A stretch of DNA of 51,938 nt from a virus, in the IMG/VR virus record IMGVR_UViG_3300042346_000514, positions 1 to 51,938 of that record. One strand, given 5' to 3'. The translations under genes and the position numbers were made by a program. This document shows, piece after piece, positions 25,948-46,849 of the stretch; position 1 is the stretch's first letter; each line of letters starts with the position of its first letter. The notes beneath the pieces are model-generated. The model did not search any database, was not told where the DNA came from, and was given only the letters and a program-made list of their open reading frames with translations.

Positions 25948-26376
25948 ATGAAAACTCATCTAAAAATTCTGAAAGATCTAAAAACTCTGGCGCATTCCGG
26001 GACTCATCCTAAAGTCTGGATTGCGTCCTCTCTTGTCCATAGAAATAAGTCAATTTCTTATGGAGTCAACCAAATGAAAACTCACCCGTATCAAAGAAGA
26101 TATGGTAAGAACGAAGAATCTATATATTGGCATGCAGAAACTTCTGCAATTTATACCGCCGATAAGAAATTAAATTTTGATAAGTTTGAAAACTCTATTC
26201 TATACGTGGCTAGAGTCAAATACAATTCTACTGAAAAAAGCGAGTTTGTTTCCGGATTAGCTGCTCCCTGTGAAGGTTGTTTGAGGTGTATCAAAGATTA
26301 TGGCATAAAAACGGTTATATATACCTTAGATTATATTGAAGGTTGTAATGAAAATTTTGGAGTCATAATATTATGA
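25948..26376 (+). CDS. Zinc-dependent deaminase-like protein
   Basis: The 142-residue product has the deaminase fold signs WIASSLVHRNKSISYGVNQ, HAETSAI (zinc His and catalytic Glu) near residue 68 and PCEGCLRCI (zinc Cys pair) near 112. It is distinct from the dCMP deaminase at 19623 and lacks that enzyme's insert; free cytidine or a nucleotide base could be the substrate. I prefer the ATG at 25948; the ATG at 25924 lies between the promoter hexamers. No ribosome site is visible, so the message may be leaderless. Confidence 0.75.
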   Translation: MKTHLKILKDLKTLAHSGTHPKVWIASSLVHRNKSISYGVNQMKTHPYQRRYGKNEESIYWHAETSAIYTADKKLNFDKFENSILYVARVKYNSTEKSEFVSGLAAPCEGCLRCIKDYGIKTVIYTLDYIEGCNENFGVIIL

Positions 26377-27089
26377 AACAAGCTGCTATTATTATCCCTA
26401 CTACTGGAGCAGAAACAGTATGGAAAGCTGTAGAATCTGCCCTCGCTCAGACATATGAAAACACTAAAGTTTATTTGGTAACAGATGGAATTGAATACAC
26501 TAGCAAAGTTGTCGCAAAAAGCCTTTTTCAAAATTATGGAAAAAAATTTGTAGAATATTATTTGCCCGAAAATACCGGAGCAAATGGTCAAAATGGTCAT
26601 AGGATTTATTCTGCCTTTTCGTTTTTAGTTGATGCGGATTATATATTATATCTAGATCAAGATTGCTGGTTTGATGAACATCACGTTGAAAAATGTATTG
26701 ATGAAATAGAATCTAAAAATCTAGATTGGTGTTATTCTCTGAGAAAAATAGTATCAAAAGAAGGGGAATATATTTGTAATGATGATTGTGAAAGCTTAGG
26801 TAAATATGCTCCAGTATTTAATTACAATCTTTGCGATACCAGTACATATTGTATTAAAAGAGAAGTTGCTATGTTAGTGGCTCCATACTTCGTAGGTGGA
26901 TGGGGTCATGATAGAAGATATTTTGAAGTGTTATCGAATAATTTCCAGAAGTTCGAATCTAGCGGGGAATATACATTAAATTATAGATTAGGTGGGGATA
27001 ATAATTTAACTGGAGATTTTTGGATTTCTTGGAATAAAGAAGTAGAAAAGAAGTATAACGGTAAATACCCTTGGAGGAATAATGGCTAA
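26373..27089 (+). CDS. Family 2 glycosyltransferase
   Basis: The 238-residue product opens with AAIIIPTTGAETVWKAVESAL and has YLVTDG, a ENTGANGQNGHR segment and DYILYLDQDCWF with the metal-binding DxD, typical of GT2 GT-A enzymes. It is the first gene of the 20-kb sugar cluster, overlapping the deaminase stop. The sugar transferred cannot be told. Confidence 0.85.
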   Translation: MKQAAIIIPTTGAETVWKAVESALAQTYENTKVYLVTDGIEYTSKVVAKSLFQNYGKKFVEYYLPENTGANGQNGHRIYSAFSFLVDADYILYLDQDCWFDEHHVEKCIDEIESKNLDWCYSLRKIVSKEGEYICNDDCESLGKYAPVFNYNLCDTSTYCIKREVAMLVAPYFVGGWGHDRRYFEVLSNNFQKFESSGEYTLNYRLGGDNNLTGDFWISWNKEVEKKYNGKYPWRNNG

Positions 27090-27423
27090 AGTTGTGATTG
27101 AATGCGAAAACCCTGGAAAAATTTCAGATGGCTTTCATACATTTGATGAATTATATACACATAGAATTATGTTGTTTATTTGTTTAATGAAGTGTAATAA
27201 AAATATTTCTTGGAGATCAAGAAAGCATGATGATGGATCTTCATATGAAGGTTGGTTTATAGCGGGTATGAAGCTTCCATCAGGGACTATTACATATCAT
27301 ATTGCTGATCAATTTTGGGGAATGCTTGATTCCATAGAAACTCTGGAAAAGTCTCCTACTTGGGATGGACATACTAGCGAAGATGTTATTAGAAGATTAA
27401 ATAATTGGGGGATGAGTATATGA
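27082..27423 (+). CDS. WDGH-domain phage protein
   Basis: The 113-residue product has DGFHTFDELYTHRIMLFICL, then WRSRKHDDGSSYEGWFIAGM, YHIADQFWGML and TWDGHTSEDVIRRL. This is the small phage protein family named for its WDGH motif; function unknown. GGAGG precedes the ATG, within the preceding glycosyltransferase gene. Confidence 0.85.
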   Translation: MAKVVIECENPGKISDGFHTFDELYTHRIMLFICLMKCNKNISWRSRKHDDGSSYEGWFIAGMKLPSGTITYHIADQFWGMLDSIETLEKSPTWDGHTSEDVIRRLNNWGMSI

Positions 27424-28202
27424 GTATTATTAAACAAATTCAACCTTTCATTTTTTCCTGGAAAGGTCAATATGAAAACGCAAAAAGATTAGAATCTCAG
27501 TTATCTGAAATTTTTGATAATGTTGTTGTAATTAATTCAGATGATGATAATGTTCCTGATAACTGGATTAATATAGGAAATGAATGTTATTTCTCAGATC
27601 AATTTAGAAAAGCTCTTGAAGTTTTTAATCAAGGGGATTATGAATTTCTCTGGCATATTCAAGCCGATGCTTCTTTTGATAATTTTGAAGATATAGTTAA
27701 ATCTGCTGATAAAGCTTATGATGAATATAAATTTGGAGTATATGCTCCTAACGTGGATGATACTTTTTATGTATCAGAAAAGACTGATGTATTTCCTTTA
27801 GACAATAATTTAAAGGTAGTAGCCACAACAGATAATACTTGTTGGATTTTCCATAGAGATATGGCTAACGATATGATTGATAATTTAGATTTAATGAAAG
27901 AAAATCAACTAGGTTGGGGCTGGGATTTATTGATTTGCGCTTTTTCTCATTTAAGAAGAAGAATGGTTATTCGAGATTATAATTATACTATTTCTCATCC
28001 TGCTTCTACTGGATATAAAAAAGAACAAGCCGAAACTGAAATGCAAACGATGTTCAATAAATGTAATGACGATTTAAAACGAGTTATTTATTTTATTAAA
28101 GCTAACCCTATTGTATTATCGGAATTATACAATATTAAACCGCCACAAAATAATATAAAAGATCAAATTTATATTTATGATACAGAGGCTGCTGTTAGAT
28201 GA
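27420..28202 (+). CDS. Putative glycosyltransferase
   Basis: The 260-residue product has a GT-A-like N-terminus: FIFSWKGQYENAKRLESQL, VVVINSDDD, EFLWHIQADASF with a DxS in place of a clear DxD, and later GWGWDLLICAFSHLRR. It overlaps the preceding stop as ATGA, so the upstream in-frame TTG at 27405 is not needed. Its position between a GT2 and a GT10 gene supports a role in glycan assembly. Confidence 0.6.
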   Translation: MSIIKQIQPFIFSWKGQYENAKRLESQLSEIFDNVVVINSDDDNVPDNWINIGNECYFSDQFRKALEVFNQGDYEFLWHIQADASFDNFEDIVKSADKAYDEYKFGVYAPNVDDTFYVSEKTDVFPLDNNLKVVATTDNTCWIFHRDMANDMIDNLDLMKENQLGWGWDLLICAFSHLRRRMVIRDYNYTISHPASTGYKKEQAETEMQTMFNKCNDDLKRVIYFIKANPIVLSELYNIKPPQNNIKDQIYIYDTEAAVR

Positions 28203-29050
28203 ATATTTGTTATATTGATTTTTGGCCTGGATTTGATCCAAATTCAAATTGGTTTAATTTGATGTTCAGAGAAGTATTGAACGATCAAGAAATAAACTTC
28301 AATTCTTCTGTAGAAGAAGCCGATATTATATTTGCCTCTGGGTTTGGAAACGAAAGAAATAAAGTAAAAAATTTAAAAGCAGTTAGAATTTTCTACACTG
28401 GAGAAAACGAAAGACCTGATTTATATTTTGCTGATTATTCTTTAAGCTTTGATTATTATTCTTATGGAGGAAGAAATTTCAGATTACCTCATTGGTATCT
28501 TTATATTAATTGGTGGAACGAACCCAATTTTCCTCATGCTACTATATCTATGGACCAATTAAACCATAAATGGGATCCGGAGGAAATTTATAATAGAAAT
28601 GATTTTTGTTCTATTATGATAGGAAATCCTGTAAAGAATAGAATCGAAGTTGCTGAGAAACTAAATTCTTATAAACCAGTTCATGGATATGGAAAAGTTT
28701 TTGGAAATCCTTATGACGGCGATAAAGTAAAATTACTAGAAAAATATAGATGGAATATTTGTTTTGAAAATTCTATTTACTATGGATATATAACAGAAAA
28801 ACTATTACAAGCAAAAGTTGCCGGATGTATACCTCTATATTACGGCGCGAACGTATCTTCGGATTTTAATTCAAATTGCGCATTTAATGCTGGATTTGAT
28901 ATGACTAATTTAGATTCTGTCTTTAAATTTGTTTATGATCTAGAAAACGATAAAGATAAATTCATCAAGACCGCATCAGAACCGTTATTTAATGTAATGC
29001 CTACTATGGATTCGTTATATAAATTTTTATCTAAAATTATTAGGAAGTGA
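28199..29050 (+). CDS. Family 10 (fucosyl-type) glycosyltransferase
   Basis: The 283-residue product shows the GT10 signature: YTGEN near residue 64, an acceptor segment LPHWYLYINWW, VHGYGKVFGNP, then NICFENSIYYGYITEKLLQA and GCIPLYYGA, the GDP-fucose-binding region of alpha-1,3-fucosyltransferases. The cluster also encodes GDP-mannose dehydratase and GDP-fucose synthase, so donor and transferase are supplied by one phage. It overlaps the previous stop as ATGA. Confidence 0.87.
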   Translation: MNICYIDFWPGFDPNSNWFNLMFREVLNDQEINFNSSVEEADIIFASGFGNERNKVKNLKAVRIFYTGENERPDLYFADYSLSFDYYSYGGRNFRLPHWYLYINWWNEPNFPHATISMDQLNHKWDPEEIYNRNDFCSIMIGNPVKNRIEVAEKLNSYKPVHGYGKVFGNPYDGDKVKLLEKYRWNICFENSIYYGYITEKLLQAKVAGCIPLYYGANVSSDFNSNCAFNAGFDMTNLDSVFKFVYDLENDKDKFIKTASEPLFNVMPTMDSLYKFLSKIIRK

Positions 29051-29051
29051 A

Positions 29052-30377
29052 ATGAATAAGAAAGAGAATATTTTAAAGTTGATAGAAGAATATGTTAATG
29101 AAAACCTACTTAATAAAAAATGGGAAGCAGGAAAGGATTTTATAGGATATGCCGGACCTTATTTCGATTCTTCCGAATTCGTAGCTGCTGTAGATAGTTT
29201 ACTCGGCGGATGGTTAGCTATGGGGGAAGTTGGATTAAAATTTGAAAGAAGATTTCCTAAATTTTTCGGTAAGGAATACGGCATTTTAACTAATAGCGGT
29301 TCAAGTTCAAATCTTCTCATGATGACCGCTTTGACTAGTCGTAGAGGTCATAATTTACCGAAAGGTACTAAAGTATTAGTCCCGATTGCTGGGTTTCCTA
29401 CTACATTAAATCCAATTATTCAGATCGGTTTCGAACCTGTATTTGTTGATATAGAATTAAATACTTTAAATCTTGATCTGAATAAAGTAGAGGAAGTATT
29501 ATCCGAAAACCCTGATATTAAGGTTATAACTTTTGCTCATGTATTAGGAAATCCCCCTGATATGAATAGGTTGATGCAGCTTGTTGATAGATATAACCTG
29601 ATTCTTCTTGAAGATTGTTGTGATGCTTTAGGTTCTAGTTATGATGGGAAAGAATTAGGAAGTTTCGGCGAAATGTCTTCATGTAGTTTTTATCCAGCTC
29701 ATCATATCACTATGGGAGAAGGAGGATTCGTATCTTGTAATACAAAGGAACAAGAAATTATCCTAAGAAGCTTTAGAGAATGGGGTAGGGGTTGTTATTG
29801 CGCAGGACCAAAGGCCAATAAACTGAAATGCGGAACTTGTAAAGTTCGTTTTAATAATTGGTTGCCTGCATTACCTGATGAAGTTTTCGATCATAAGTAT
29901 GTTTACGACGAGATTGGATATAACCTAAAACCTTTGGAGTTACAAGCTGCTATCGGTATTGAACAGATTAAGAAAATTCCTGAAATTACTAATATCAGGA
30001 AAAATAACTATAATTCATTATTCAATATATACGAAAAATATGAAGAATTTTTCTATATTCCCAGAGCAACTGATTTAAGTGATCCTAGTTGGTTTGCTTT
30101 TCCTCTGACTATAAAAGAAAATTCCCCTTTTACGAGAGGCGATATTGTAAATTATTTTGAGGATAATCTAATTCAAACTAGGCCATATTTTGCTGGAAAT
30201 ATTATTTTACAGCCTGGATACAATCATTTAATGGATTTAAATGAAGCTAAGAATAATTATCCTAAAGCTACATACTCAACTATGAATACATTTTTCCATG
30301 GAACAAGTCCTGTAGTTACAACTGAGCAAATTTCGTATATCGGGAATGTTTTAGATAATTTTATGAAACAATATTAA
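29052..30377 (+). CDS. PLP/PMP-dependent sugar 3-dehydrase (RfbH/AscC E1-like)
   Basis: This 441-residue DegT-fold protein has NSGSSSNLL, GFPTTLNPIIQIGFEPVFVD and LLEDCCDALGSSYDG. At the cofactor site it reads FYPAHHITMGEGG, with His (217) where aminotransferases have the PLP-binding Lys. That is the mark of the 3-dehydrases of 3,6-dideoxyhexose synthesis. Cys190, Cys248 and Cys250 fit the C-X57-C-X-C spacing I recall for the iron-sulfur site of E1, with Cys260/Cys263 as candidates for the fourth ligand. It would remove the 3-hydroxyl of an NDP-4-keto-6-deoxysugar. The reductase partner is not seen here. Confidence 0.85.
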   Translation: MNKKENILKLIEEYVNENLLNKKWEAGKDFIGYAGPYFDSSEFVAAVDSLLGGWLAMGEVGLKFERRFPKFFGKEYGILTNSGSSSNLLMMTALTSRRGHNLPKGTKVLVPIAGFPTTLNPIIQIGFEPVFVDIELNTLNLDLNKVEEVLSENPDIKVITFAHVLGNPPDMNRLMQLVDRYNLILLEDCCDALGSSYDGKELGSFGEMSSCSFYPAHHITMGEGGFVSCNTKEQEIILRSFREWGRGCYCAGPKANKLKCGTCKVRFNNWLPALPDEVFDHKYVYDEIGYNLKPLELQAAIGIEQIKKIPEITNIRKNNYNSLFNIYEKYEEFFYIPRATDLSDPSWFAFPLTIKENSPFTRGDIVNYFEDNLIQTRPYFAGNIILQPGYNHLMDLNEAKNNYPKATYSTMNTFFHGTSPVVTTEQISYIGNVLDNFMKQY

Positions 30378-30388
30378 AGGTAAACTAA

Positions 30389-31072
30389 ATGATTATATTA
30401 GCATCAATACACACTGAAAATTTTAAACTCCTATCAGATATTACATGGGAATCGAATAAAATCAAATATTGCGAAAAACACGATTACCTTCCTTTATCTA
30501 AAATTGGAGGGTTTTATGGTATTCCTATTGGATTCGAGAAAATTGCATTTCTATTAGATATTTTGAATAATATTTCTGAATGTAGTTGGATTTGGTGGAC
30601 TGGAGCAGATAGTCTTGTCACAAACTTTAATATAAAGATTGAAGATAAGATTGAAGAAGCGTTACGAGACGATCCGAATAAACATATCATAATGACTGGA
30701 GATTTTAATTACAAAATTAATTGCGATTCTATTTTGTTGAAAAATTCAGAAGAAACTAAACATTGGCTGAAGAGTATTCTTGATAGTCTACCTGTATATG
30801 GAAACCATATGTTTGCAGAGCAACAATATATGTTAGATTCTTTTGATCAATTTTCAGATATTATTAAATTGATGCCTCAGAATTTTATGAATAGCTATGA
30901 CTTCAAACATTATGGAGATGATGAAAATGGAGTAAGTTTAGCCGCTAAGGACGTAAACGGTGAGAGAGGATTATGGGAAAGCGGCGATTGGTTTATTCAT
31001 TTCCCTGGAACTGGTTGGGATAATAGACTAAATCTAGCTAAAGAATATTTTGATAAAATTATTTATGAATAA
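30389..31072 (+). CDS. Family 34-like glycosyltransferase
   Basis: The 227-residue product has YGIPIGFEKIAFLLDIL, SWIWWTGADSLVTN with an AD-type metal motif, a DSILLKNSEETKHWL block, AEQQYML and GDWFIHFPGTGWDNR, the order found in GT34 galactosyl/mannosyltransferases. It stands alone without overlap, with an AAAGGTAAA site upstream. Confidence 0.75.
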   Translation: MIILASIHTENFKLLSDITWESNKIKYCEKHDYLPLSKIGGFYGIPIGFEKIAFLLDILNNISECSWIWWTGADSLVTNFNIKIEDKIEEALRDDPNKHIIMTGDFNYKINCDSILLKNSEETKHWLKSILDSLPVYGNHMFAEQQYMLDSFDQFSDIIKLMPQNFMNSYDFKHYGDDENGVSLAAKDVNGERGLWESGDWFIHFPGTGWDNRLNLAKEYFDKIIYE

Positions 31073-31694
31073 AGAACAATTAATTGAGTTTGAAAATAAA
31101 GTTGCAGCAAAATTTAATAACGCTGAAATAAAAGCGCCTATACATTTATATCACGGAAATGAAGAAGAAATGATGAAAGTCTTTCAGAAGATTGACGTGG
31201 TTAATGATTGGGTTTGTTGTACTTGGAGAAATCATTATCAATGTCTCTTGAAAGGAGTACCAGAAGATCTTTTGATGGAAAAGATTATTGCTGGTAAAAG
31301 TATGGTAATGAATCTGGCTGATTATAAAATTGTTTGTTCTAGTATCGTCGGCGGTATTCCTAGTATCGCCGTAGGTATAGCAGAATCAATTAAACGTAAA
31401 AGAGAGAAATCTAGGGTTTGGTGTTGGGTTGGAGATATGAGTGCAGAAACAGGAGCTTTTCATGAAGCATATAAGTATTCTGTAAATCATAATCTTCCAA
31501 TTACTTTTATCATAGAGAATAATGGATTGAGCGTAACTTCCCCGACTGATGAAGTTTGGGGAAGGTCTTTTCCTTGGTACGTTCCTTTATATCATCAAGA
31601 TGTGAATTGGTACGAAGGCGAGAATTTAATAGCCTATACATACAAGAATGAAAAATATCCACATGCCGGAGCTGGAGTTAGGGTGAAATTTTGA
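31065..31694 (+). CDS. TPP-dependent enzyme, E1-alpha-like subunit
   Basis: The 209-residue protein has the thiamine-diphosphate motif GDMSAETGAFHEAYKYSVNH...ENNG (GD...NN) in its second half and a GGIPSIAVGIAESIK block before it. It corresponds to the cofactor-binding half of dehydrogenase E1 or transketolase, much shorter than bacterial E1-alpha (over 300). It overlaps the GT34 gene and is followed by the matching beta half. In a sugar cluster the pair may transfer a two-carbon unit to or from a ketosugar. Confidence 0.82.
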   Translation: MNKEQLIEFENKVAAKFNNAEIKAPIHLYHGNEEEMMKVFQKIDVVNDWVCCTWRNHYQCLLKGVPEDLLMEKIIAGKSMVMNLADYKIVCSSIVGGIPSIAVGIAESIKRKREKSRVWCWVGDMSAETGAFHEAYKYSVNHNLPITFIIENNGLSVTSPTDEVWGRSFPWYVPLYHQDVNWYEGENLIAYTYKNEKYPHAGAGVRVKF

Positions 31695-32224
31695 GTCAAG
31701 AAATTTATAAAGAAGAATTAAAACGGGCTATGAGTTGGTTATCAGACCAATCTGATACTATATTTCTAGGTCAATCCGTTTTATATGAAGGGACAGGGTT
31801 ATACGATAGTTTATCTCATCTACCAAAAGAAAAGAGAATGGAATTTCCAGTCGCTGAAAATTTTCAATTAGGGTTTAGTATTGGATTAGCGATTAATGGG
31901 TTTGTTCCTATTTCCGTATATCCTAGATGGAATTTTCTATTAAGCGCAACAGATCAAGTCGTAAATCATTTAGATAAATTATTTTTTATGAGCGACGGTC
32001 AATATAACCCAAAGGTTATTATAAGAGTTGCTGTCGGTTCTGTTATTCCTGTAGATCCTCAAGATCAACATAAAGGAAATTTTTCAGAAGCATTTTCTTT
32101 GATGTGTAAGAATATTGACATTGTAGAAGCTTTTACTCCAGAAAAAATATTCGAAGCGTATAAGTATGCATACAACAATAACAAAAGCACTATAATTGTG
32201 GAATCTTCGGACTATGGCAAATAA
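31691..32224 (+). CDS. TPP-dependent enzyme, E1-beta-like subunit (pyrimidine domain only)
   Basis: The 177-residue product matches the transketolase/E1-beta pyrimidine-binding domain: MEFPVAENFQLGFSIGLAING with the catalytic Glu, and VPISVYPRWNFLLSATDQV. The usual C-terminal domain of E1-beta or transketolase is absent. The start is a TTG overlapping the alpha stop (TTGA), with AGGGTG upstream. It should form the active site jointly with the alpha-like subunit. Confidence 0.8.
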   Translation: MSQEIYKEELKRAMSWLSDQSDTIFLGQSVLYEGTGLYDSLSHLPKEKRMEFPVAENFQLGFSIGLAINGFVPISVYPRWNFLLSATDQVVNHLDKLFFMSDGQYNPKVIIRVAVGSVIPVDPQDQHKGNFSEAFSLMCKNIDIVEAFTPEKIFEAYKYAYNNNKSTIIVESSDYGK

Positions 32225-33005
32225 AATATTATTACTAGGATCTAATGGGTGTATAGGAAATTATTTAAAAAAATCTCTTGAATACAAAGTAAAATCAATA
32301 AGTAGAAAACAATGTGATTTAACTGATAGAGAAGCAGTATTCAAATTATTTAAAAAAGAAACTCCTGATGTTGTTATAAATTGCGCAGCTAATGTAAATC
32401 TATCTATGGATAATTTTTCAGTTCAATCTTATTTCGATAACTTAAATATATTTTATAGCATTTACAACGCGAAGGAAAATTTCGGTAAATTAATAAACTT
32501 CGGTTCTGGGGCTGAATTTGATAGATCTATATCAATAGATAACAGAAAAGAAGAAAATATTGTTGATATAAAACCTTCTGATCATTATGGGCTTAGTAAA
32601 AACCTTATATCTAACGTTTGTTTAAATACAGAAAATTTCTATACATTAAGATTGTTTGGATGTTTACATAATACTAGTAAGAAAGGGCTCTTTAATAAAA
32701 TAGTAAATTCTAAAGAAATCACAATAGAAGATAGATATTTTGACTTTTTAAATTTGGAAGATTTAATTCCAGTATTAAACCTGTATATAGATACAGACCC
32801 AGTTTATAAAGACATGAATTTAGTTTATAAAGAAAAATTCCTTTTAAGCGACTTAGTTTCTAAATTCATAAATTTTCATGATATAAAAACCGAGGTTATA
32901 TATAATAAAGTAAATAAAAACTATACAGGTTCTTCTGAGAGGTTGGATAGTTTAAATATTAAATTGAAAGGTATAGAAGCTGGATTGAGGGATTATATAT
33001 TATGA
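32214..33005 (+). CDS. NAD(P)-dependent sugar epimerase/reductase (RmlD-like)
   Basis: The 263-residue short-chain dehydrogenase starts with KILLLGSNGCIGNYL, then has CDLTDREAVFKLFKKETPDVVINCAA and the YGLSK catalytic motif near residue 124. The QCDLTD..DVVIN pattern resembles RmlD-type 4-ketoreductases. It could finish the deoxysugar made by the dehydratase and dehydrase nearby. It overlaps the E1-beta gene by 11 bases. Confidence 0.8.
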   Translation: MANKILLLGSNGCIGNYLKKSLEYKVKSISRKQCDLTDREAVFKLFKKETPDVVINCAANVNLSMDNFSVQSYFDNLNIFYSIYNAKENFGKLINFGSGAEFDRSISIDNRKEENIVDIKPSDHYGLSKNLISNVCLNTENFYTLRLFGCLHNTSKKGLFNKIVNSKEITIEDRYFDFLNLEDLIPVLNLYIDTDPVYKDMNLVYKEKFLLSDLVSKFINFHDIKTEVIYNKVNKNYTGSSERLDSLNIKLKGIEAGLRDYIL

Positions 33006-33949
33006 AAGTTGTTTATGTTACTGGTTGTTTGGGTTTTATTGGTTCTTATGTAACTCTTTCTTGTTTACAAAAAGGATGGTACGTTATAGGCGTTGATAAA
33101 ATAACATACGCAGCCAATCCAAATATACTTAAATCGTTAAAGTTATTTAAAAATTTTAAATTTATACAATCGGATATTAACGATTTAGATAGATTATATG
33201 ATTGCGACTATATAATCAATACCGCAGCAGAATCCCATGTGGATAATTCAATAATTAGTTCTGATGAATTTTTACATAGTAATATAAATGGAGTTCATCA
33301 TTTACTTGAATTAATAAAACAAAAACATAAATTTAAAATGCCCGTCTTACTTCACTTTAGTACAGATGAAGTGTATGGAGATATTGTAGATGGAGCACAT
33401 AAAGAAACTGATTTATTAAAACCTTCCAATCCATATTCAGCAACTAAAGCTTCTGCTGATATGTTAATTATTGCCTGGGGAAGAACTTTTAATGTCCCTT
33501 ATGTTATAGTAAGGCCGAGTAATAATTATGGAATAGGTCAGTATGTAGAAAAATTAATTCCAAAAACTTGTAAACATCTTAAACTCGGTAGAAAAATACC
33601 AGTTCATGAAGGTGGACAACCAAGAAGAACTTGGCTACATGCTTCTGATACAGCATCGGCTATTATAAAAATAATTGAATCTGGTCAAGTAAACGAAATA
33701 TTTAATATCGGAGGAAATTACGAAGATAAAAATATAAACGTACTTACTAAATTGATAAAACTATATTATAATAATGAAAACGAAGATATCGAAAAATATG
33801 TAGATTTTGATTACAGTAGGCCAGGACAAGACGTTAGATATTCTATAGATGATTCTAAATTAAAAGCTCTTGGTTGGACTCCTGAAGCTGATTTTGATGA
33901 ACATTTAGAGAAAATCGTTTTATTTGAAAAGAATAATTTTATTTGGTGA
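33002..33949 (+). CDS. NDP-glucose 4,6-dehydratase (RmlB-like)
   Basis: The 315-residue product has VTGCLGFIGSYV, GVDKITYAANPNIL, TAAESHVDNSI, HFSTDEVYGD and YSATKASADM with the Tyr-x3-Lys pair, then RPSNNYG and RRTWLHASDTA. These are the marks of dTDP-glucose 4,6-dehydratase and its CDP relatives. Its 4-keto-6-deoxy product would be a plausible substrate for the 3-dehydrase at 29052. Confidence 0.9.
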   Translation: MKVVYVTGCLGFIGSYVTLSCLQKGWYVIGVDKITYAANPNILKSLKLFKNFKFIQSDINDLDRLYDCDYIINTAAESHVDNSIISSDEFLHSNINGVHHLLELIKQKHKFKMPVLLHFSTDEVYGDIVDGAHKETDLLKPSNPYSATKASADMLIIAWGRTFNVPYVIVRPSNNYGIGQYVEKLIPKTCKHLKLGRKIPVHEGGQPRRTWLHASDTASAIIKIIESGQVNEIFNIGGNYEDKNINVLTKLIKLYYNNENEDIEKYVDFDYSRPGQDVRYSIDDSKLKALGWTPEADFDEHLEKIVLFEKNNFIW

Positions 33950-33953
33950 ATTT

Positions 33954-34847
33954 ATGAATGAATTACAAGTTATAAATGACAAAATTTCTGGGTTATTTGA
34001 CTCCGGAAACCCTTTTTCTATAATTAGAATAGGTAATATGGAAGGCTATTTTATTGACTGTTTTTATAGACAAACAGCTCCTTTAGAAGAATTCCATTAT
34101 TGGCTATCTCTAACTTCTGGTGTATATCCAATGGATCCTAGATATCTAACTACTATTTGGTTAGATGAAAATATAAAAGCTATCGACAATGCTGACGTAT
34201 TAGGGTTTGTTGATGTTTCCGGAGAAGTAGAAAGAAATAAACTTTTTGTAGAGGCTCATTGTAAAGATAAATTTAGCGTCTATGGCGTTAAAAAAATAGA
34301 AATTTTAGATCCAGGCGTTATATTAAATAAGGAAATTATTTCGAATCCTTGGACGAAAAACCTAAAGGGGAAAAAGGTTCTTGTTGTATCTTCTCATTAC
34401 GATAGCATTAAACTACAATGGAATAAGATGAAAGATATATGGGGAGATTACTTAGAAGAAATTGCTCCATTCGATTTAGTTGATGTTATTCGTTCCCCTT
34501 TCCATCCTCAAATGGATGATAGACAATTCGAAAATTGTTATAGTTGGGACCAAAGCCTGAATCATATGAAAAAACAAATTGATCAATATGATTACGATGT
34601 TCTTTTAGTTGGTGCTGCGGCATATTCTCCTGGATTAGCTAATCATGCAAAAGAAAACGGTAAGATTGGGATTACTTTATGCGGAGCTATTCAGTTGTAT
34701 TTTGGTATTCTAGGTTCTAGATGGACGACTCAGGAATACTATAAAGATTGGCTTAAATTGTTCAACGATAATTGGATTTATACATTAGAATCAGATCTAC
34801 CTAAAAACAAAAACGTATTTGATAGATTCGAAAAAGCATATTGGTGA
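33954..34847 (+). CDS. Putative GT-D-fold glycosyltransferase
   Basis: The 297-residue product has SIIRIGNMEGYF near the start and DYDVLLVGAAAYSPGLANHAKENGKIG-type text near the end, followed by LCGAIQLYFGILGSRW. The RxGxxE opening and late GA..PGLANHAK block recall GT-D (DUF1792-like) transferases. I start at 33954, just after the previous stop; an upstream in-frame ATG at 33924 overlaps the dehydratase. Confidence 0.55.
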   Translation: MNELQVINDKISGLFDSGNPFSIIRIGNMEGYFIDCFYRQTAPLEEFHYWLSLTSGVYPMDPRYLTTIWLDENIKAIDNADVLGFVDVSGEVERNKLFVEAHCKDKFSVYGVKKIEILDPGVILNKEIISNPWTKNLKGKKVLVVSSHYDSIKLQWNKMKDIWGDYLEEIAPFDLVDVIRSPFHPQMDDRQFENCYSWDQSLNHMKKQIDQYDYDVLLVGAAAYSPGLANHAKENGKIGITLCGAIQLYFGILGSRWTTQEYYKDWLKLFNDNWIYTLESDLPKNKNVFDRFEKAYW

Positions 34848-34850
34848 TTT

Positions 34851-35768
34851 ATGGAAGGATTTAAGTTTTTAATTGGTAAGTATGATCTTTCCAATAAAAA
34901 TAATGTAATTGATATTATAAACTATTACAATAGTAATAATAAGTTCTATGAATCTTTTAGTTATTTGAATAATCTAGGGTATTATTACGAAAATATAAAT
35001 GATATTTACTACAATACCCTAGTAAAATATCTATCTGAAGATAGAAAAGAATCAGCAGATAAAAATACTCCTATTATTATAACTTGGACTATTTCTCCTA
35101 AAAACGTACCCTTTCTTCATATGACTGACCCTCAAGTAAGATTGAGGGAAAATCTTTTAGGTCTTTGTGCTTGGATATTAGACAAAAGTTTCGAAAATAT
35201 ATTGATAGTCGAAAGTTCCGAATTTAAATTAAATACAAATAAATTATTTGATATAGGTAAAGAATTCGGTAAACAAATTGAATTTATATCTTTCCTAGGT
35301 TCTGATAATGTAAGTAAATTTGGAAAAGGTTATGGCGAAGGAGAAATCCTTGAGTATGCTTTTAATAATAGTATGACATTAAAAACGAATAAATTTGATA
35401 AATTCGTAAAGATGAACGGTAAGCAATATGTACCGTTCTACGAATATCTTTTTATGAATAATAGAGGTTCATTTGAATATTTTAATCTACATTACATAGC
35501 GAATAAACTAGCTATTGATACTAGATTTTATTGTATCAATACTTCATATTATAAAGAAAAATTATTCTATGCGTATAAAGAAGTTAATGATCACGAAAAT
35601 AATTATTTAGAACACGTTTTTTATGAAACTGTTAAAGATAGAATAAATTATTATGTTCCAAGGGAACCTATCGTATTAGGTAAACAAGGTTCTGTGGATA
35701 AAAATTACGGTAATTATCCTGAGATTGTACACAATCTTTGTAATAGACTATTGAATGAAATTGTATGA
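34851..35768 (+). CDS. Uncharacterised sugar-cluster protein, possible glycosyltransferase
   Basis: The 305-residue product has NILIVESSEFKLNT near residue 120, FGKGYGEGEILEYAFNNS near 160 and KFVKMNGKQYVP near 185. The GKGYGE..EYA and following K.NG.. pattern occurs in capsule-cluster transferases I have seen without a firm name. It follows the GT-D-like gene by three bases and overlaps the next. Confidence 0.5.
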   Translation: MEGFKFLIGKYDLSNKNNVIDIINYYNSNNKFYESFSYLNNLGYYYENINDIYYNTLVKYLSEDRKESADKNTPIIITWTISPKNVPFLHMTDPQVRLRENLLGLCAWILDKSFENILIVESSEFKLNTNKLFDIGKEFGKQIEFISFLGSDNVSKFGKGYGEGEILEYAFNNSMTLKTNKFDKFVKMNGKQYVPFYEYLFMNNRGSFEYFNLHYIANKLAIDTRFYCINTSYYKEKLFYAYKEVNDHENNYLEHVFYETVKDRINYYVPREPIVLGKQGSVDKNYGNYPEIVHNLCNRLLNEIV

Positions 35769-36586
35769 ATGAAGTAAATATCTACGGATGTGGTTTTATT
35801 GGAAAAGAATATCATAAAAAATATTCAGGTATAATAAACGAGAAAGATGATTTAATTCCAAAAAGTAATAATATATTATACTTCATTTCTACGGTAGATA
35901 ATTATAACGTATTTGAAGATCCTTTGATTGATATAGAAACTAACCTAATAACTTTGATGAAAAGTTTAAATGAATGTAAAATCAAATATGGTAAAGATTT
36001 TACATTCAATTTTATAAGCAGCTGGTTTGTTTATGGAGATTGCCCTTTACCGGCAAAAGAAAGTTATTCTTGTTCTCCGAAAGGGTTTTATTCAATAACT
36101 AAAAAAGCAGCAGAAGATTTACTCATATCCTATTGCGAAACTTTTGAAATTAATTATAGAATTCTTAGGTTATGTAACGTTTTAGGTAGATCGGATAATA
36201 AAGTATCAAAAAAGAAAAACGCTTTTCAGTTTATACTAAATCAATTAAAGTCTGGAGAACCAGTTAGTCTATATAATGGAGGACATTTTTATAGAGATTA
36301 TATGCATGTAGAAGATGTTGTATCTGCTATCAATACTGTAATTAATACATCTGTTCCTAACCAAATATATAATATAGGTTCTGGAGATAAAGTAGAATTT
36401 CTAGAAATGGTAAATTTCGCTAAAGATAAATTAAATAGTAAAAGCGAAATCATTAATATATTTCCCTCAGAATTTCATACTAAAGTTCAATCTAAAGATA
36501 TGATACTTGATGTAGAGAAATTGAATAATTTACAATTCCAGAGAAAGTATAAAAATATAGAAGAAATTATAGAACAATTAATTTGA
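35765..36586 (+). CDS. NAD-dependent epimerase/dehydratase
   Basis: The 273-residue short-chain dehydrogenase begins VNIYGCGFIGKEYH, a shortened nucleotide-binding loop, and has FISSWFVYGD, YSITKKAAEDLL with the catalytic Tyr and Lys, RLCNVLGRSD, and YRDYMHVEDVVSAI. This is the UDP-sugar epimerase type. Exact substrate unknown. It overlaps the preceding stop. Confidence 0.82.
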   Translation: MNEVNIYGCGFIGKEYHKKYSGIINEKDDLIPKSNNILYFISTVDNYNVFEDPLIDIETNLITLMKSLNECKIKYGKDFTFNFISSWFVYGDCPLPAKESYSCSPKGFYSITKKAAEDLLISYCETFEINYRILRLCNVLGRSDNKVSKKKNAFQFILNQLKSGEPVSLYNGGHFYRDYMHVEDVVSAINTVINTSVPNQIYNIGSGDKVEFLEMVNFAKDKLNSKSEIINIFPSEFHTKVQSKDMILDVEKLNNLQFQRKYKNIEEIIEQLI

Positions 36587-36593
36587 GGTTATT

Positions 36594-37265
36594 ATGAAAA
36601 TTGCATTATGTTTATCTGGTCAACCCAGAAGTTTTGAAAAGGGATTTGAGTATTATAAAAAGAATTTGTTAGATGTTTATGATGTTGACGTTTTCCTTCA
36701 TACTTGGTATTACGACTTTTTCGATTATAGTAAGTTAATAGATTTATATAAGCCAAAAACTATTAAAGTACAAAAACCTTTGAATATTAATCTCCAAAGG
36801 TTTTCTCAATATTGTAATTATAATATATTTTCTTTATTTTATGGAATCAAACAATCTCATTCTCTATTACAAGAAGTAGAAAATAACGAAGAATTTAAGT
36901 ATGATTGGGTCGTAAGAAGTAGATATGATTATGCCTTAAATATCTCGCCAGATTTTTCTAAATTAGATCCAAAGAAATTATATGTTCCTAGATCTTTGAG
37001 AGATGATATTTGTAACGATCAAATTTCAATATCATCTTCTAATGATGCTGAATTATATTCGCTTACGGTAAAAAACTTATTCCATTTTGTTGATTCTGGT
37101 TGTAGTTTTGCTGGAGAAGATTTATTAGCAAGAAATTTAAAATTCTATAATCTTTGGAATAGAGTCGAATATATAGATATGAATGATCCGTTTCCTCCTG
37201 ATAATTATGGTTGTATGTCTCATAGTTTGATTAGGGACGATTTTGAATTTTGGGTCAATAAATAA
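36594..37265 (+). CDS. 'LCLSGQPR' family sugar-cluster protein, copy 1
   Basis: The 223-residue product starts with MKIALCLSGQPRSFEKG, then DVFLHTWYYD, and has YDWVVRSRYDYAL in the middle. A second member lies at 44999. The opening and the VxRSRYD block suggest a GT-A-like transferase domain, but no donor or acceptor is known to me. GAGG precedes the ATG. Confidence 0.6.
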   Translation: MKIALCLSGQPRSFEKGFEYYKKNLLDVYDVDVFLHTWYYDFFDYSKLIDLYKPKTIKVQKPLNINLQRFSQYCNYNIFSLFYGIKQSHSLLQEVENNEEFKYDWVVRSRYDYALNISPDFSKLDPKKLYVPRSLRDDICNDQISISSSNDAELYSLTVKNLFHFVDSGCSFAGEDLLARNLKFYNLWNRVEYIDMNDPFPPDNYGCMSHSLIRDDFEFWVNK

Positions 37266-37280
37266 ATTTAGAGGTATATT

Positions 37281-38294
37281 ATGAAGAAGGTATTGATTTT
37301 TGGTGTGACTGGACAAGACGGTTCATATCTATCCGAAATTTTATTAGAAAAAGGATATGAAGTTCATGGAGTAAAAAGAAGATCTTCTTCTTATAATACC
37401 TCTAGAGTAGATCATATTTACAAAAATAAAAATTTTAAATTACATTATGGAGATGTAACTGATTCTCTAAATGTAACTCGTTTGATACAAACGATTAAAC
37501 CAGACGAAATTTATAACCTTGCAGCTCAATCTCATGTAATGGTTTCTTTTGAAATTCCAGAGTATACAGGTAACGTTGATGCCTTGGGTACTTTAAGGAT
37601 TTTGGAATCTATACGTCTATTAGGAATGGAAAACTCAATAAAGTTTTACCAAGCTTCTACCTCAGAACTATATGGCCTAGTTCAAGAAATCCCTCAATCA
37701 GAAACTACTCCTTTCTATCCAAGAAGTCCTTATGGCGTTGCTAAACTATATGGATTCTGGATTCTTAAGAATTATAGAGAAGCTTATAATATTTTCGCCT
37801 GTAACGGTATTCTTTTCAATCATGAATCACCAAGAAGGGGAGAAACTTTTGTTACTCAGAAAATTGTTATGGGGTTAAATCAAATCCGTAAGAAGCAATC
37901 TTCTTGTTTATATCTTGGTAATCTAGATGCTTTAAGGGATTGGGGTCATGCTAAAGATTATTGTAGGGCAATGTATTTAATGCTTCAACAAGATAAACCT
38001 GATGACTACGTTATAGCAACGGGTAAACAATATTCAGTTAGGCAGTTTGTAAATTTTTGTTCTTCGTATTTTGGTATGAATATTGTCTGGGAAGGAACTG
38101 GATTAGAAGAAGTTGGTATTGATAAAAATAGCGGAAATGTTGTAGTAGCAGTAGATCCTAAATATTTCAGACCAACTGAGGTTTCTACTTTATTAGGGGA
38201 TCCTACTAAAGCAAGAACACTATTAAATTGGAAACCCGAATATACATTTGAAGATTTAGTTGTGGAGATGTGTATAAATGAATTATCAAGATAA
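37281..38294 (+). CDS. gmd: GDP-mannose 4,6-dehydratase
   Basis: The 337-residue product has [40 protein letters not shown], the NLAAQSHV block, [20 protein letters not shown] with the catalytic Tyr/Lys, and [17 protein letters not shown], all diagnostic for Gmd. It makes GDP-4-keto-6-deoxymannose and is followed by GDP-fucose synthase with a 17-base overlap. Confidence 0.96.
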
Positions 38295-39204
38295 AATTTA
38301 CGTTGCTGGACATAATGGATTAGTAGGTTCAGCTATAATAAGAAGATTGACTGAGTTAGGTTATAAGAATATTGTAACCAAAACTAGTAAGGAACTTGAT
38401 TTAAGAGATCAAGATGCAGTAAGGAAATTCTTTTTTTGGCATAGACCAGATTACGTTTTCGATGCTGCTGCTAAGGTTGGCGGAATATATGCTAACGATA
38501 CTTATTCTGCAGAATTTATATATGATAATATTATGATTCAAACTAATTTGATTCATAATTCTTATATGTTTGGAGTAAAGAAATTTATTTTCCTAGGAAG
38601 CGTTTGTATCTATCCTAAATTCGCAGAAACTCCAGTAAAAGAAGAAAGTTTATTGACTGGTAAATTGGAACCAACCAATGATGCTTACGCTATAGCTAAA
38701 ATTTCAGGAATTAAAATGTGCGAGGCATATAATAAACAATATGGGTTTAAATCTGTTTCTATAATGCCAGCTAACCTATACGGACCTAATGATAATTTCC
38801 ATCCTATGAATGGACATGTAATTCCAGCAATGTTCACTAAATTCAATTCAGCAAAAGATAAAGTTGAATTTTGGGGAGATGGAACTGCTATGAGAGAATT
38901 TTTATATGCAGATGATATGGCAGATTCTTGTATATTCCTAATGAATTCAGAATTAGAAAACGGAGAGTTAATAAATGTTGGTTCAGGTTATGACGTTTCT
39001 ATTAAAGAATTAGCTTCTACTATTTCAGAAATAGTAGATTTCAAGGGAGAAATAGTTTGGGATACTTCTAAACCAAACGGAACTCAAAAAAGACCTTTGG
39101 ATTTCTCTAAAATTAAATCTTTAGGATGGACCCCTAAATATTCTTTGAAAGAAGGGTTAGAAAAAACATATGACTGGTTTAAACAGAATAAGGTGAGGAT
39201 GTAA
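38278..39204 (+). CDS. fcl: GDP-L-fucose synthase
   Basis: The 308-residue product has [62 protein letters not shown] with the catalytic Tyr/Lys, and [14 protein letters not shown]. This is the 3,5-epimerase/4-reductase completing GDP-L-fucose. With Gmd and the GT10 enzyme it forms a complete transfer route from GDP-mannose. Confidence 0.96.
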
Positions 39205-39458
39205 TGGAAACTATTGGAAATTTGATTGATAAGTTGAGTGTTGTAAACCTTCGAATATGGATGGCTGAAGATATTAAAAGAATTCCTGATGCGTCAGATA
39301 AACAAATCGCTGATGCAACTAGACTAACTAATATCTGCAATCAACAAAGAAACGATCTCATTCAGGAAATTGATGAGAAAATTAATTATTTGGTTAAAAA
39401 TAATACTACCCAGAAATTATATAAACAAGGTAGTACCAAAATGTATGGAAAGGATTGA
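39204..39458 (+). CDS. DUF4254-like small protein
   Basis: The 84-residue helical protein reads TIGNLIDKLSVVNLRIWMAED and CNQQRNDLIQEIDEKINYL. The pattern matches the small DUF4254-type proteins often found inside phage and bacterial glycan clusters, where their role is unknown. It overlaps fcl by one base. Confidence 0.75.
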   Translation: METIGNLIDKLSVVNLRIWMAEDIKRIPDASDKQIADATRLTNICNQQRNDLIQEIDEKINYLVKNNTTQKLYKQGSTKMYGKD

Positions 39459-39463
39459 TTATT

Positions 39464-40687
39464 ATGAAAGAATTATTTACTATTGGAAAATTATACGTTT
39501 CTGATTTTCTAGAGGAAAACGAAACTCCTAGATGTGAACCTGTTGAAATGAAGATGATGTTTGATGAATCTAGATTAGCTACTAGATTAAGCGAAAGCGC
39601 TCCACCAGAAGCAATGTATGGTAAATATTGGTATCGTTCCGGTATTAATCAGACTATGAAAAAAGAACTTAAATCTATCGTAGAATCTGTTAATTCTATT
39701 AAAAAATTGAAAAAGGGTTCTTTGTGGTTAGATATAGCTTGTAATGACGGAACTCTATTAAGCTATGTAGAAGAAGATTTAATTAGAGTTGGAATCGATC
39801 CTGTAGAAGATTCTTTTGTTAAAGAATCCAAAAACCATGCAGATTTAATAATTCAAGATTATTTCAACAAGACTTCATATCTAAATTCTTTATATGGGGA
39901 AGAAAAAGCTTCTGTAGTAACTACTATAGCAATGTTTTACGACCTAGAAGATCCAGATAAATTTTTACAAGACGTTTATGATGTTATGGATAATAATGGT
40001 TTGTTTGTAGTACAAATGAGCTATACTCCTTTAATGATTGAACAAATGGCTTTTGATAATATTTGTCATGAACATCTTTATTATTATAATCTAACCAATA
40101 TTAAACATTTATTCGAGAAAAATGGATTTAGAATAATGGATTGTCAGTTAAATGACATTAATGGAGGTTCTTTTAGAGTATATGCCGTAAAGGATGTTTG
40201 CGATGATACTACATTTTCAACTCAACCATACAGGGATGTTTGTTCTTTCAGAATAAATTCTTTGTTAGAATACGAAGTAGCAAAAGGATATAATACTCCT
40301 GAAATTTGGGAAGATTTTTATAAACGATTACTTGAATTGAAAGATCAAGTAAGGGAATTTATCGTAAATGAAAAATCAAAAGGTAAAAGTATTTGGGGGT
40401 ATGGAGCGTCCACAAAAGGTAATACTCTACTTCAATATTTCGGTTTAGATAATACTTTGATCGACGGAATTGCTGAAAGAAGTCCTTATAAATTCGGGTT
40501 AAAAACTGTAGGAACTAATATTCCAATTTATTCTGAGGAATATATGAGGGAACAAAACCCTGATTACCTATTAGTTTTACCTTGGCACTTTATTAACGAA
40601 TTTACGGAAAGAGAACAAGATTATTTAAATTCCGGAGGTAAATTTATTGTACCTTGTCCGAAATTTAAAATAATTGAAAAAGTATGA
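39464..40687 (+). CDS. Deoxysugar C-methyltransferase-like protein
   Basis: The 407-residue product has an N-terminal segment, a class I SAM domain (LWLDIACNDGTLLSYV, then FDNICHEHLYYYN), and a C-terminal part with SIWGYGASTKGNTLLQYF and PDYLLVLPWHF. This is the layout of TylC3/NovU-type NDP-sugar C-methyltransferases. The usual N-terminal zinc cysteines are not evident; only one Cys (in PRCEPVEM) is near there. It suggests a C-methyl-branched sugar. Confidence 0.85.
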   Translation: MKELFTIGKLYVSDFLEENETPRCEPVEMKMMFDESRLATRLSESAPPEAMYGKYWYRSGINQTMKKELKSIVESVNSIKKLKKGSLWLDIACNDGTLLSYVEEDLIRVGIDPVEDSFVKESKNHADLIIQDYFNKTSYLNSLYGEEKASVVTTIAMFYDLEDPDKFLQDVYDVMDNNGLFVVQMSYTPLMIEQMAFDNICHEHLYYYNLTNIKHLFEKNGFRIMDCQLNDINGGSFRVYAVKDVCDDTTFSTQPYRDVCSFRINSLLEYEVAKGYNTPEIWEDFYKRLLELKDQVREFIVNEKSKGKSIWGYGASTKGNTLLQYFGLDNTLIDGIAERSPYKFGLKTVGTNIPIYSEEYMREQNPDYLLVLPWHFINEFTEREQDYLNSGGKFIVPCPKFKIIEKV

Positions 40688-41538
40688 AGAAAATAATATT
40701 CTTCAATAATTTCCATAACGGGGATCTGTTCATTTGTAAATCTTTTGTAAAATTTATAATGAACAATTTCCCCGCTGAATATTTCTATATTCACGGAAGG
40801 CATCCTTCTATACTCCAGGATATTAAACTTAATGTCATTTCTGGTAATATAAATCTTCCAGACAAGTTATTAGAGATCAATGATGAAATTTATATAAATT
40901 CTTGGATTGGTAATTACCTTGGACATTTTTATTATTCTGGATGTAATCTTAAATTATTATATGAAATGTTCAGCGATTTAGTAGGAAAATTAAACGTAAT
41001 ATATAACTCAGATGTAAAGTTGAATCCTAATCCAGAAGAATATTTTCCTTATATTGAATATAAAGATTACAATATAAACGGAATAGATAAATTCTTATTA
41101 GAAAATTCTCAGGAAAAAATATTATTTTCAAACGGACCAGCTTTATCAGATCAGAATTTTAATAATAGTAATTTACAAGAAATTATAACGGAATCTGCTA
41201 AAGCTAATCCAGAAAAAATATTCATTGTAACTGAAAAATTTTATGCTACAGAATCCAATATAATATTCACGGAAGATATGACTGGATGTTTTCCTGATGT
41301 AAACGAAATAGGATATCTTTCAAAATTTTGTTCTAAAATAATTGGCAGAAGTTCTGGTCCGTTTACTTTCTGTATGCATAAAGATAACTTAAACGACGAA
41401 ACTAAAAATATTTTATGTTTTGGAAATAATCCTGTTAACGTTATTCCTTTTGAAATGAAAGTTAAATGTAACTATAAATATGTTATTGATGATAACGAAA
41501 ACAATTTGAAGAAAGAAATACTAGAGTTTATATTATGA
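40684..41538 (+). CDS. Putative GT-B (family 9-like) glycosyltransferase
   Basis: The 284-residue product opens with KIIFFNNFHNGDLFICKSFV, a pattern of heptosyltransferase-like GT-B proteins, and later has ILFSNGPALSD and a SKIIGRSSGPFTF block where GT9 enzymes bind donor. The assignment is weak but fits its neighbours. It overlaps both adjacent genes. Confidence 0.5.
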   Translation: MKKIIFFNNFHNGDLFICKSFVKFIMNNFPAEYFYIHGRHPSILQDIKLNVISGNINLPDKLLEINDEIYINSWIGNYLGHFYYSGCNLKLLYEMFSDLVGKLNVIYNSDVKLNPNPEEYFPYIEYKDYNINGIDKFLLENSQEKILFSNGPALSDQNFNNSNLQEIITESAKANPEKIFIVTEKFYATESNIIFTEDMTGCFPDVNEIGYLSKFCSKIIGRSSGPFTFCMHKDNLNDETKNILCFGNNPVNVIPFEMKVKCNYKYVIDDNENNLKKEILEFIL

Positions 41539-42515
41539 AAAGTATAATGTTCCATTTAAATAATCTAACTTTCAGAGGTACAACTACCGCTGTTATAGAT
41601 TATGCAAGATACAATCAATCTATATTAAATAATAAAAGTATTATAGCGTATCCTAAACATCTTCTTGGTCCTAATGATGAAATCAATTCGACCAGAAGAT
41701 TCGAAATTGCCGAATTTTTCCTGAATAATTTTGATACAATAGAATACGAAAATAAAGAAGAACTTAAATCCGAATTAGATAATAGAGGTTGCGAATACGT
41801 TCATTACCTAAAAGCTGGAATGTTTGATAATGATTATCTAGAAGGAAAAATAAATCTAATACATTGCGTTTTTAATCATTATCAACCTCATGGTCATAGA
41901 TACGTTTATATATCTAATTGGTTAAAAAATCATGCAACTGCTAATGATCCTACTTTTAATTATGTTCCTCATATAGTTAATTTACCCGAAACTCAAACCG
42001 AAAATTTAAGAGAACGTTTGGGTATAAGTAAAGATAAAATCGTAATTGGAAGGCATGGAGGATTTCATGAATTTGATATTATTTTCGCGCAGGAAATAGT
42101 TAAACATATACTTTCCACTGACGACTCTTTTGTGTTTTTATTTTTAAATACACAACCTTTTGTTTATCATCCTAATGTAATATATTTGGATTCTATATTT
42201 GATCCTCAAGATAAAACTAATTTTATTTTAGCTTGTGATATTATGCTTCAAGCTAGATCATTAGGAGAATCATTTGGTTTATCTATATGCGAAGGTTTGT
42301 TTCATAATAAACCAGTCCTTTCTTTTGGAGGAGGACCGGATAAGCATAATGTAGAATTAACAGAAAAATATAATTTGATATATAATAGTCCTAATGAATT
42401 GTATGAAAAGTTAATGGCTCTGAAAAACGGAACCGATATAGATTATAAGTCTATAGTTGAGCAATTTTCCCCAATAAATGTTATGAATAAATTTGATAGA
42501 GTATTTTTGAAATAA
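41535..42515 (+). CDS. Family 4-like glycosyltransferase
   Basis: The 326-residue GT-B protein has FRGTTTAVIDYARY at the start, YVYISNWLKNHA mid-way, IVIGRHGGFHEFD, and the donor site RSLGESFGLSICEGLFHNKPVL with the spaced Glu pair of GT4. It overlaps the previous stop as ATGA. Confidence 0.78.
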   Translation: MKSIMFHLNNLTFRGTTTAVIDYARYNQSILNNKSIIAYPKHLLGPNDEINSTRRFEIAEFFLNNFDTIEYENKEELKSELDNRGCEYVHYLKAGMFDNDYLEGKINLIHCVFNHYQPHGHRYVYISNWLKNHATANDPTFNYVPHIVNLPETQTENLRERLGISKDKIVIGRHGGFHEFDIIFAQEIVKHILSTDDSFVFLFLNTQPFVYHPNVIYLDSIFDPQDKTNFILACDIMLQARSLGESFGLSICEGLFHNKPVLSFGGGPDKHNVELTEKYNLIYNSPNELYEKLMALKNGTDIDYKSIVEQFSPINVMNKFDRVFLK

Positions 42516-42516
42516 T

Positions 42517-45727: not shown

Positions 45728-45746
45728 CCATATTGGAGATTTAATT

Positions 45747-46813: not shown

Positions 46814-46824
46814 ATATATAAATA
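46801..46824 (+). promoter_or_regulatory. Triple tandem late promoter word
   Basis: TATAAATA is repeated three times with no spacer (46801-46808, 46809-46816, 46817-46824). This is the -10 element read by gp55. It stands 25 bases before the gene at 46850. The first copy is part of the end of the preceding gene. Confidence 0.65.
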
Positions 46825-46849
46825 AACCATTTATAAAATAAAACCAATT

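Follow-up and report, generated by a model that had tools for sequence, protein, structure and literature searches.

The phage and its sugar island

The window, by which the whole stretch of DNA analysed is meant (51,938 bases), is a fragment of a T4-like virus which encodes PolB, UvsX, UvsW, a DnaB-type helicase, SbcCD and a clamp loader. The closest relatives of its PolB belong to cyanophages, at only about 43% identity. A sugar island, placed after the helicase, extends from about 26 to 48 kb, and the genes at its start are common to the relatives L005-L007. The features of the island are the following:

26373-29050, + strand: start of the island, with a GT2, a WDGH-domain protein, an unknown protein and a GT10 fucosyltransferase (28199-29050) (Pfam; also in L005-L007)
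29052-30377, + strand: predicted RfbH/E1-type PMP-/[2Fe-2S]-dependent NDP-4-keto-6-deoxyhexose 3-dehydrase, 441 aa (NCBIfam, PDB; residues H217, C190, C248, C250, C263)
30389-31072, + strand: glycosyltransferase, GT34-like (Pfam PF05637, 55 bits)
31065-31694, + strand: alpha part of a predicted minimal thiamine diphosphate (ThDP) enzyme, PDH E1-alpha-like, 209 aa, motif G123-D124...N153 (Pfam E1_dh, 55.7 bits)
31691-32224, + strand: beta part of the same predicted enzyme, PDH E1-beta-like pyrimidine domain, 177 aa, Glu E56 (NCBIfam PRK09212, 54 bits, partial)
32214-33005, + strand: short-chain dehydrogenase (SDR), probably a ketoreductase acting on the C4 branch or on C4 itself (Pfam Epimerase, RmlD_sub_bind)
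33002-33949, + strand: NDP-glucose 4,6-dehydratase, RmlB-like, dTDP-type by HMM (TIGR01181)
within 33954-48315, + strand: a GT-D-like protein, an SDR, a GDP-mannose 4,6-dehydratase (37281), a GDP-fucose synthase-like protein (38278) and unknowns (Pfam, NCBIfam)
within 33954-48315, + strand: a C-methyltransferase (39455), a HAD+nucleotidyltransferase fusion (43629) and an FkbM methyltransferase (45672) (Pfam, NCBIfam)

The 4,6-dehydratase at 33002 and the SDR at 32214, which the earlier note had listed as a 4,6-dehydratase and a ketoreductase, are both real according to Pfam and NCBIfam. The former scores 301 bits with the dTDP-type model TIGR01181 and 78 bits with the CDP-type one, both under the cut-off, and a relative of it accompanies most viral RfbH loci. 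No RfbF-like ORF (CDP-glucose cytidylyltransferase) was found among the ORFs scanned in the window and thus, with a dTDP-type 4,6-dehydratase, the gene set is not that of CDP-abequose or CDP-ascarylose synthesis.

The island also holds a second sugar route (37281-40687 and 28199-29050), formed by the GDP-mannose dehydratase, the GDP-fucose synthase-like protein and the GT10 fucosyltransferase, together with a C-methyltransferase of the Methyltransf_14 type. The fusion at 43629-44999 joins a beta-phosphoglucomutase-like HAD domain to a sugar nucleotidyltransferase domain, and a stretch 70% identical to it sits near RmlB in loci L022 and L081. The closest relatives (L005-L007) carry, at about 17726 and near a GDP-fucose synthase, a second dehydrase-like gene which is 26% identical and possibly ColD-like. 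Outside the island, a phage FtsH-like AAA+/M41 protease with a hydrophobic N-terminal segment is encoded at 9420-11219, and a reverse-strand gene at 4444-5808 belongs to a phage family of unknown function, weakly similar to queuine tRNA-ribosyltransferase.

The dehydrase and its key residues

The ORF at 29052-30377 is, as far as its sequence and modelled fold can tell, a genuine iron-sulfur, His-type sugar 3-dehydrase of the RfbH/E1 type, in agreement with the earlier note, which had described a phage Fe-S 3-dehydrase of the dideoxyhexose type. It scores 452.5 bits with the NCBIfam RfbH model NF011936 (cut-off 423) over residues 3-440, and its best sequence match in the PDB is the Yersinia E1 3bcx (6e-105, residues 4-437 aligned). 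An AlphaFold model built from 34 phage sequences (mean pLDDT of 90) also has 3bcx_A as top structural match, with TM-scores of 0.87 by query and 0.91 by target; the cysteine loop (about 251-270) is of low pLDDT, with blocks of 48-53, though the overall fold matches E1.

The replacement of the cofactor Lys by His, already claimed from the sequence, is borne out: in the PDB alignment H217 falls on the catalytic H220 of E1, which is mutated to Lys in 3bb8, and the position is His in all 168 viral homologues, which excludes an intact Lys. Likewise, the spacing C190-X57-C248-X-C250 is as it had been given, and the three cysteines align with C193, C251 and C253 of E1 in 3bcx. The fourth cluster cysteine, C263, had been missed; it aligns with C261 of E1, with a spacing of X12 versus X7 in E1. 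None of the 168 viral homologues departs from the window at H217, H218, C190, C248, C250 or C263; C260 is not conserved among them.

Reductase and electron supply

The absence of the reductase partner from the window was confirmed by a domain search, in which no NAD_binding_1 or Fer2 domain was found even at E<=1. Moreover, a search of 50 records of related viruses, the longest of 328 kb, gave no E3-type reductase. In bacterial dehydrase loci, a ferredoxin-motif scan found no E3 in the operon, and reductase-like genes were located elsewhere in 10 of the 13 genomes scanned. SpnQ, a relative of E1, is served by ferredoxin or flavodoxin reductase pairs of a general kind (PMC8987622). Since SpnQ manages with such general pairs and the related viral records are equally devoid of E3, the missing reductase is unremarkable, and a dedicated E3 is not strictly defining of the E1/RfbH family. 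By analogy, host ferredoxin or flavodoxin carriers are the likely electron source for the phage dehydrase.

The minimal ThDP enzyme

The ORFs at 31065-31694 (with an alternative upstream TTG start at 31050 in the ORF listing) and 31691-32224 overlap and lie directly upstream of the SDR, the GT34-like gene separating them from the dehydrase. Judged from their residues, both together are predicted to form a minimal ThDP enzyme with intact catalytic residues. Both features expected of ThDP enzymes (alphaKADH2 superfamily), a catalytic Glu in the pyrimidine domain and the GD...N motif, are present: G123, D124 and N153 of the alpha part are identical in 105 of 105 viral homologues, and E56 of the beta part is kept in 104 of 104. 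The beta part aligns only with residues 21-174 of PDH E1-beta and has no C-terminal domain; the C-terminal regions present in PDH E1 are missing from the pair as a whole.

That the pair came from cyanobacteria was also considered and found to be unsupported, a weak match being present in one of 292 genomes. In Synechococcus phage S-SM2 (L229, 8977-10185) the PDH-type alpha and beta parts are apparently fused in a protein of 402 aa, annotated as transketolase; no Fe-S dehydrase was detected in the stretch of its sugar cluster that was read.

Association of the dehydrase with ThDP enzymes

Eighty viral loci were collected with the dehydrase as query. The genes that follow the dehydrase were read and compared with Pfam, and HMMs built from the ThDP genes so recognised were used for the counts. 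A ThDP enzyme was found within 6 kb and on the same strand in 71 of the 80, in four architectures: the PDH-like pair (22 loci), a split transketolase-like pair of about 202+159 aa (20), a one-piece acetolactate-synthase/YerE-like enzyme of about 586-605 aa (16) and its split counterpart of about 342+247 aa (13). When the loci were reduced to a non-redundant set at 90% identity, each with flanks of 4 kb, 54 of 56 carried one. The viral relatives often have a different ThDP enzyme at the place equivalent to that of the window pair, and in many loci the ThDP genes are placed between the dehydrase and the SDR; in most loci with the PDH-like pair the SDR comes after them, as does the SDR at 32214. 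An acetolactate-synthase-like neighbour also occurs next to some dehydrase genes of bacteria and archaea, in roughly 30 of 77 loci that could be read.

As a ThDP enzyme accompanies the dehydrase in almost every related phage, phages with both genes probably make branched eight-carbon sugars, and not plain 3,6-dideoxyhexoses. The earlier note had proposed a 3,6-dideoxyhexose; the part of that proposal concerning a 4-keto-3,6-dideoxy intermediate stands, given the 4,6-dehydratase and the dehydrase, but the plain end product does not, the ThDP pair having been passed over. A pathway ending at an unbranched sugar of the abequose, ascarylose or tyvelose type, reached through the dehydrase and the SDR at 32214 while the ThDP pair serves elsewhere, is held to be improbable. 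The dehydrase, the 4,6-dehydratase and the SDR would be enough for it if a reductase were supplied, and nine of the 80 loci (two of the 56 non-redundant ones with full flanks) have no ThDP enzyme nearby; it is the frequency and position of the ThDP genes in the remaining loci that argue against it, as does the occurrence of the same gene set in known branched-sugar pathways (PMC12247030, PMC4753412).

A control set of 80 viral loci was anchored on the GDP-mannose 4,6-dehydratase of the same island. Here a ThDP enzyme was present in all six loci with the dehydrase versus three of the 74 without it (Fisher p = 3e-7). Among loci anchored on the RmlB of the window, it was present in 40 of the 45 that have the dehydrase and in 26 of the 30 that do not, the enzyme of these 26 being mostly a split transketolase and some of the loci being incomplete contigs. 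Consequently, ThDP enzymes accompany this 4-keto-sugar pathway in general, even where C3 deoxygenation is no part of it. In L162, L163, L169, L172 and some 17 further loci anchored on RmlB the split transketolase pair lies directly upstream of RmlB, with no Fe-S dehydrase in the stretch fetched; such loci possibly specify a branched 6-deoxy sugar which retains the C3 hydroxyl.

These same dehydrase-less RmlB loci lend something to a second alternative, in which the product is not 3-deoxygenated: the ThDP pair would branch another keto-sugar, such as GDP-4-keto-6-deoxymannose, or the dehydrase would be a SpnQ-like 4-aminotransferase. The GDP-mannose 4,6-dehydratase at 37281 lies in the same island and its 4-keto product could be the acceptor, and SpnQ is known to transaminate when no reductase is present (PMC8987622). 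This alternative is rated as unlikely, and slightly more so than the unbranched sugar, because the ThDP genes are so rare in GDP-mannose-dehydratase loci devoid of the dehydrase, and because E1 and ColD gave no transamination in SpnQ-like conditions (PMC8987622).

Loci anchored on the PDH-like pair (n=72) have an Fe-S dehydrase within 6 kb in 38 cases. A His-type, cluster-less ColD-like dehydrase is near the pair in 18 of the 72, 14 of which have no Fe-S form, and its position beside the pair again predicts a 4-keto-3-deoxy acceptor.

Partner swapping and phylogeny of the dehydrase

On a tree of 77 dehydrases (a quick tree, with SH-aLRT as the only support), the ThDP family changes at least 29 times, or at least 24 when the two acetolactate-synthase-type forms are merged; if only starred branches are counted, at least 14 changes are still needed for the PDH type, at least 15 for the one-piece type and at least 7 for the transketolase. 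The ThDP partner has thus often been replaced by unrelated enzymes and rarely lost, as if the acceptor stayed the same and the branch-adding step could be exchanged. That the ThDP genes should instead be auxiliary genes of central metabolism (pyruvate dehydrogenase, transketolase, acetolactate synthase) boosting the host, and present in the island by chance, is very unlikely: automatic annotation does assign the acetolactate synthase of viral contigs to amino-acid metabolism (PMC8226683), but the mini-subunits have no PDH E1 C-terminal regions, three unrelated families alternate next to one sugar gene, and ThDP genes are almost missing from GDP-mannose-dehydratase islands without the dehydrase.

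The phage dehydrases form one nearly virus-only clade, apart from the bacterial ones, which holds 33 of the 36 viral sequences sampled; a recent host origin is therefore not favoured. The only cellular member of the clade, and the nearest cellular match (63%), is on a Pirellula MAG contig (JAIPFP010000127.1; L312, 529-3892). This contig carries a three-gene block of dehydrase, SDR and RmlB, 71-83% identical to phage, with other, non-phage-like ORFs downstream, and the block may be due either to phage-to-host transfer or to mis-assembly.

Proposed pathway to a branched sugar

It is considered fairly likely that the dehydrase provides the C3-deoxygenation step of a phage pathway to a C4-branched 3,6-dideoxy octose of the yersiniose type. 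In the pathway proposed, in which the substrate, the donor (pyruvate), the place of the branch, the sequence of reactions and the final acceptor are inferred, a host-made NDP-glucose (probably dTDP or CDP) would be converted by the 4,6-dehydratase at 33002 into NDP-4-keto-6-deoxyglucose. The dehydrase at 29052 would then strip the C3 hydroxyl via a PMP adduct, yielding NDP-4-keto-3,6-dideoxyglucose, its own [2Fe-2S] cluster being supplied with electrons by ferredoxin or flavodoxin of the host. The ThDP pair at 31065-32224 would decarboxylate pyruvate and join the two-carbon unit to the C4 ketone, forming a tertiary alcohol which bears an acetyl branch, and the SDR at 32214, as the probable ketoreductase, would turn this acetyl into a hydroxyethyl. 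Finally, one of the glycosyltransferases of the island would pass the branched sugar, in the cytoplasm, to an acceptor. The branch may sit at C4 or at C3, and the nucleotide is uncertain, the dTDP-type HMM being the best but below its cut-off. Against this pathway stand the GT34-like gene that comes between the dehydrase and the ThDP pair, the ThDP enzymes of RmlB loci devoid of the dehydrase, and the GDP-mannose 4,6-dehydratase as another potential source of the acceptor.

The product of E1 is CDP-4-keto-3,6-dideoxyglucose (PMC12247030, PMC4753412, PMC8987622), onto which YerE puts a pyruvate-derived activated acetaldehyde in the synthesis of yersiniose A (PMC12247030, PMC4753412). Keto-sugar branching is known or proposed for PDH-type alphaKADH2 pairs in aldgamycin, kibdelomycin and paulomycin synthesis (PMC12247030, PMC4753412) and for split transketolases in antibiotics (PMC12247030); a ketoreductase may act afterwards on the acetyl branch so formed and reduce it (PMC12247030, PMC4753412). 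All three ThDP families with known or proposed roles in keto-sugar branching (yersiniose, paulomycose, miharamycin) adjoin the same dehydrase in phages, and the clustering of a ThDP carboligase-type enzyme with an Fe-S 3-dehydrase that marks the yersiniose type is seen both in the window and in nearly all of the non-redundant viral loci.

Possible purpose of the sugar

The earlier note had suggested that such a sugar is suited to changing phage receptors. In a hydropathy scan of about 25 island proteins none resembled a flippase, polymerase or ligase of the integral membrane type. No island protein has a convincing transmembrane segment, although the same scan gives a clear score for the FtsH of the phage. 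Since the island encodes no evident membrane protein, neither export nor a change of receptor brought about solely by phage genes is supported, and the latter is not favoured. Glycosylation of virion proteins, which is known in mycobacteriophages according to work cited in PMC12619734, suits an island with several glycosyltransferases at least as well.

Novelty and implications

The phage dehydrase is not new by itself, as RfbH genes have previously been reported in viruses: rfbH/ascC/ddhC have been listed as virome metabolic genes (PMC10653327), and an RfbH gene is annotated in Synechococcus phage S-H68. The open-access literature yielded no report of a phage pathway to branched-chain sugars (octoses), nor of the dehydrase coupled to exchangeable sugar-branching ThDP enzymes in phages. 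We lean, by a little, towards the wider view that a widespread aquatic phage lineage possesses a modular branched-sugar system, in which one conserved dehydrase would supply the 4-keto-3-deoxy acceptor and the carboligases (PDH-type, split transketolase, YerE-type and split YerE-type) would have been swapped repeatedly to alter the branch.

If so, a series of new octoses is to be expected in phage glycans, and phages would rank among the makers of the most unusual sugars in chemical terms, by a pathway whose C-C bond-forming step can be swapped. Many viral genes annotated as acetolactate synthase, transketolase or pyruvate dehydrogenase would be sugar-branching enzymes, and their annotations would need re-reading. 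Furthermore, the split transketolases proposed for keto-sugar branching comprise only 13 Streptomyces sequences, none of them characterised in vitro (PMC12247030). The phage pairs are small candidates with intact catalytic residues, adjoining the predicted acceptor-forming enzyme, and make the branching question testable.

Comparison with known systems

With E1 of Yersinia pseudotuberculosis (CDP-6-deoxy-L-threo-D-glycero-4-hexulose 3-dehydrase) and the RfbH of Salmonella type, the phage dehydrase has in common the fold, the catalytic His, the four cluster cysteines and homology over the full length. Unlike them, it has the X12 spacing of the last cysteine, a partner 4,6-dehydratase of the dTDP type (by HMM) and no E3 gene, and falls in a nearly virus-only clade. 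SpnQ (dTDP-4-keto-2,6-dideoxyglucose 3-dehydrase), likened here by description, is also an Fe-S, His-type enzyme with no dedicated E3 (PMC8987622), but its substrate is already 2-deoxy.

The phage ThDP pair is likened, again by description, to AviB1/AviB2, Pau11/Pau12 and KbDH-alpha/beta, which are PDH E1-alpha/beta-like, lie in deoxysugar clusters and have a proposed role in attaching a C2 branch derived from pyruvate (PMC4753412; PMC12247030). It differs from the descriptions of these antibiotic pairs in the size of its subunits (209 + 177 aa), the beta part corresponding to the first 175 residues or so of PDH E1-beta.

Finally, the yersiniose A pathway (E1/E3, YerE and a ketoreductase) resembles that of the phage in the clustering of a 4,6-dehydratase, an Fe-S 3-dehydrase, a ThDP carboligase and a reductase (PMC12247030, PMC4753412). 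The window differs from it in being phage-encoded, in the absence of E3 and in having a two-piece PDH-type ThDP enzyme in the place of YerE, a position at which some of its viral relatives carry, as in the yersiniose pathway, a one-piece YerE-like enzyme of the acetolactate-synthase type.
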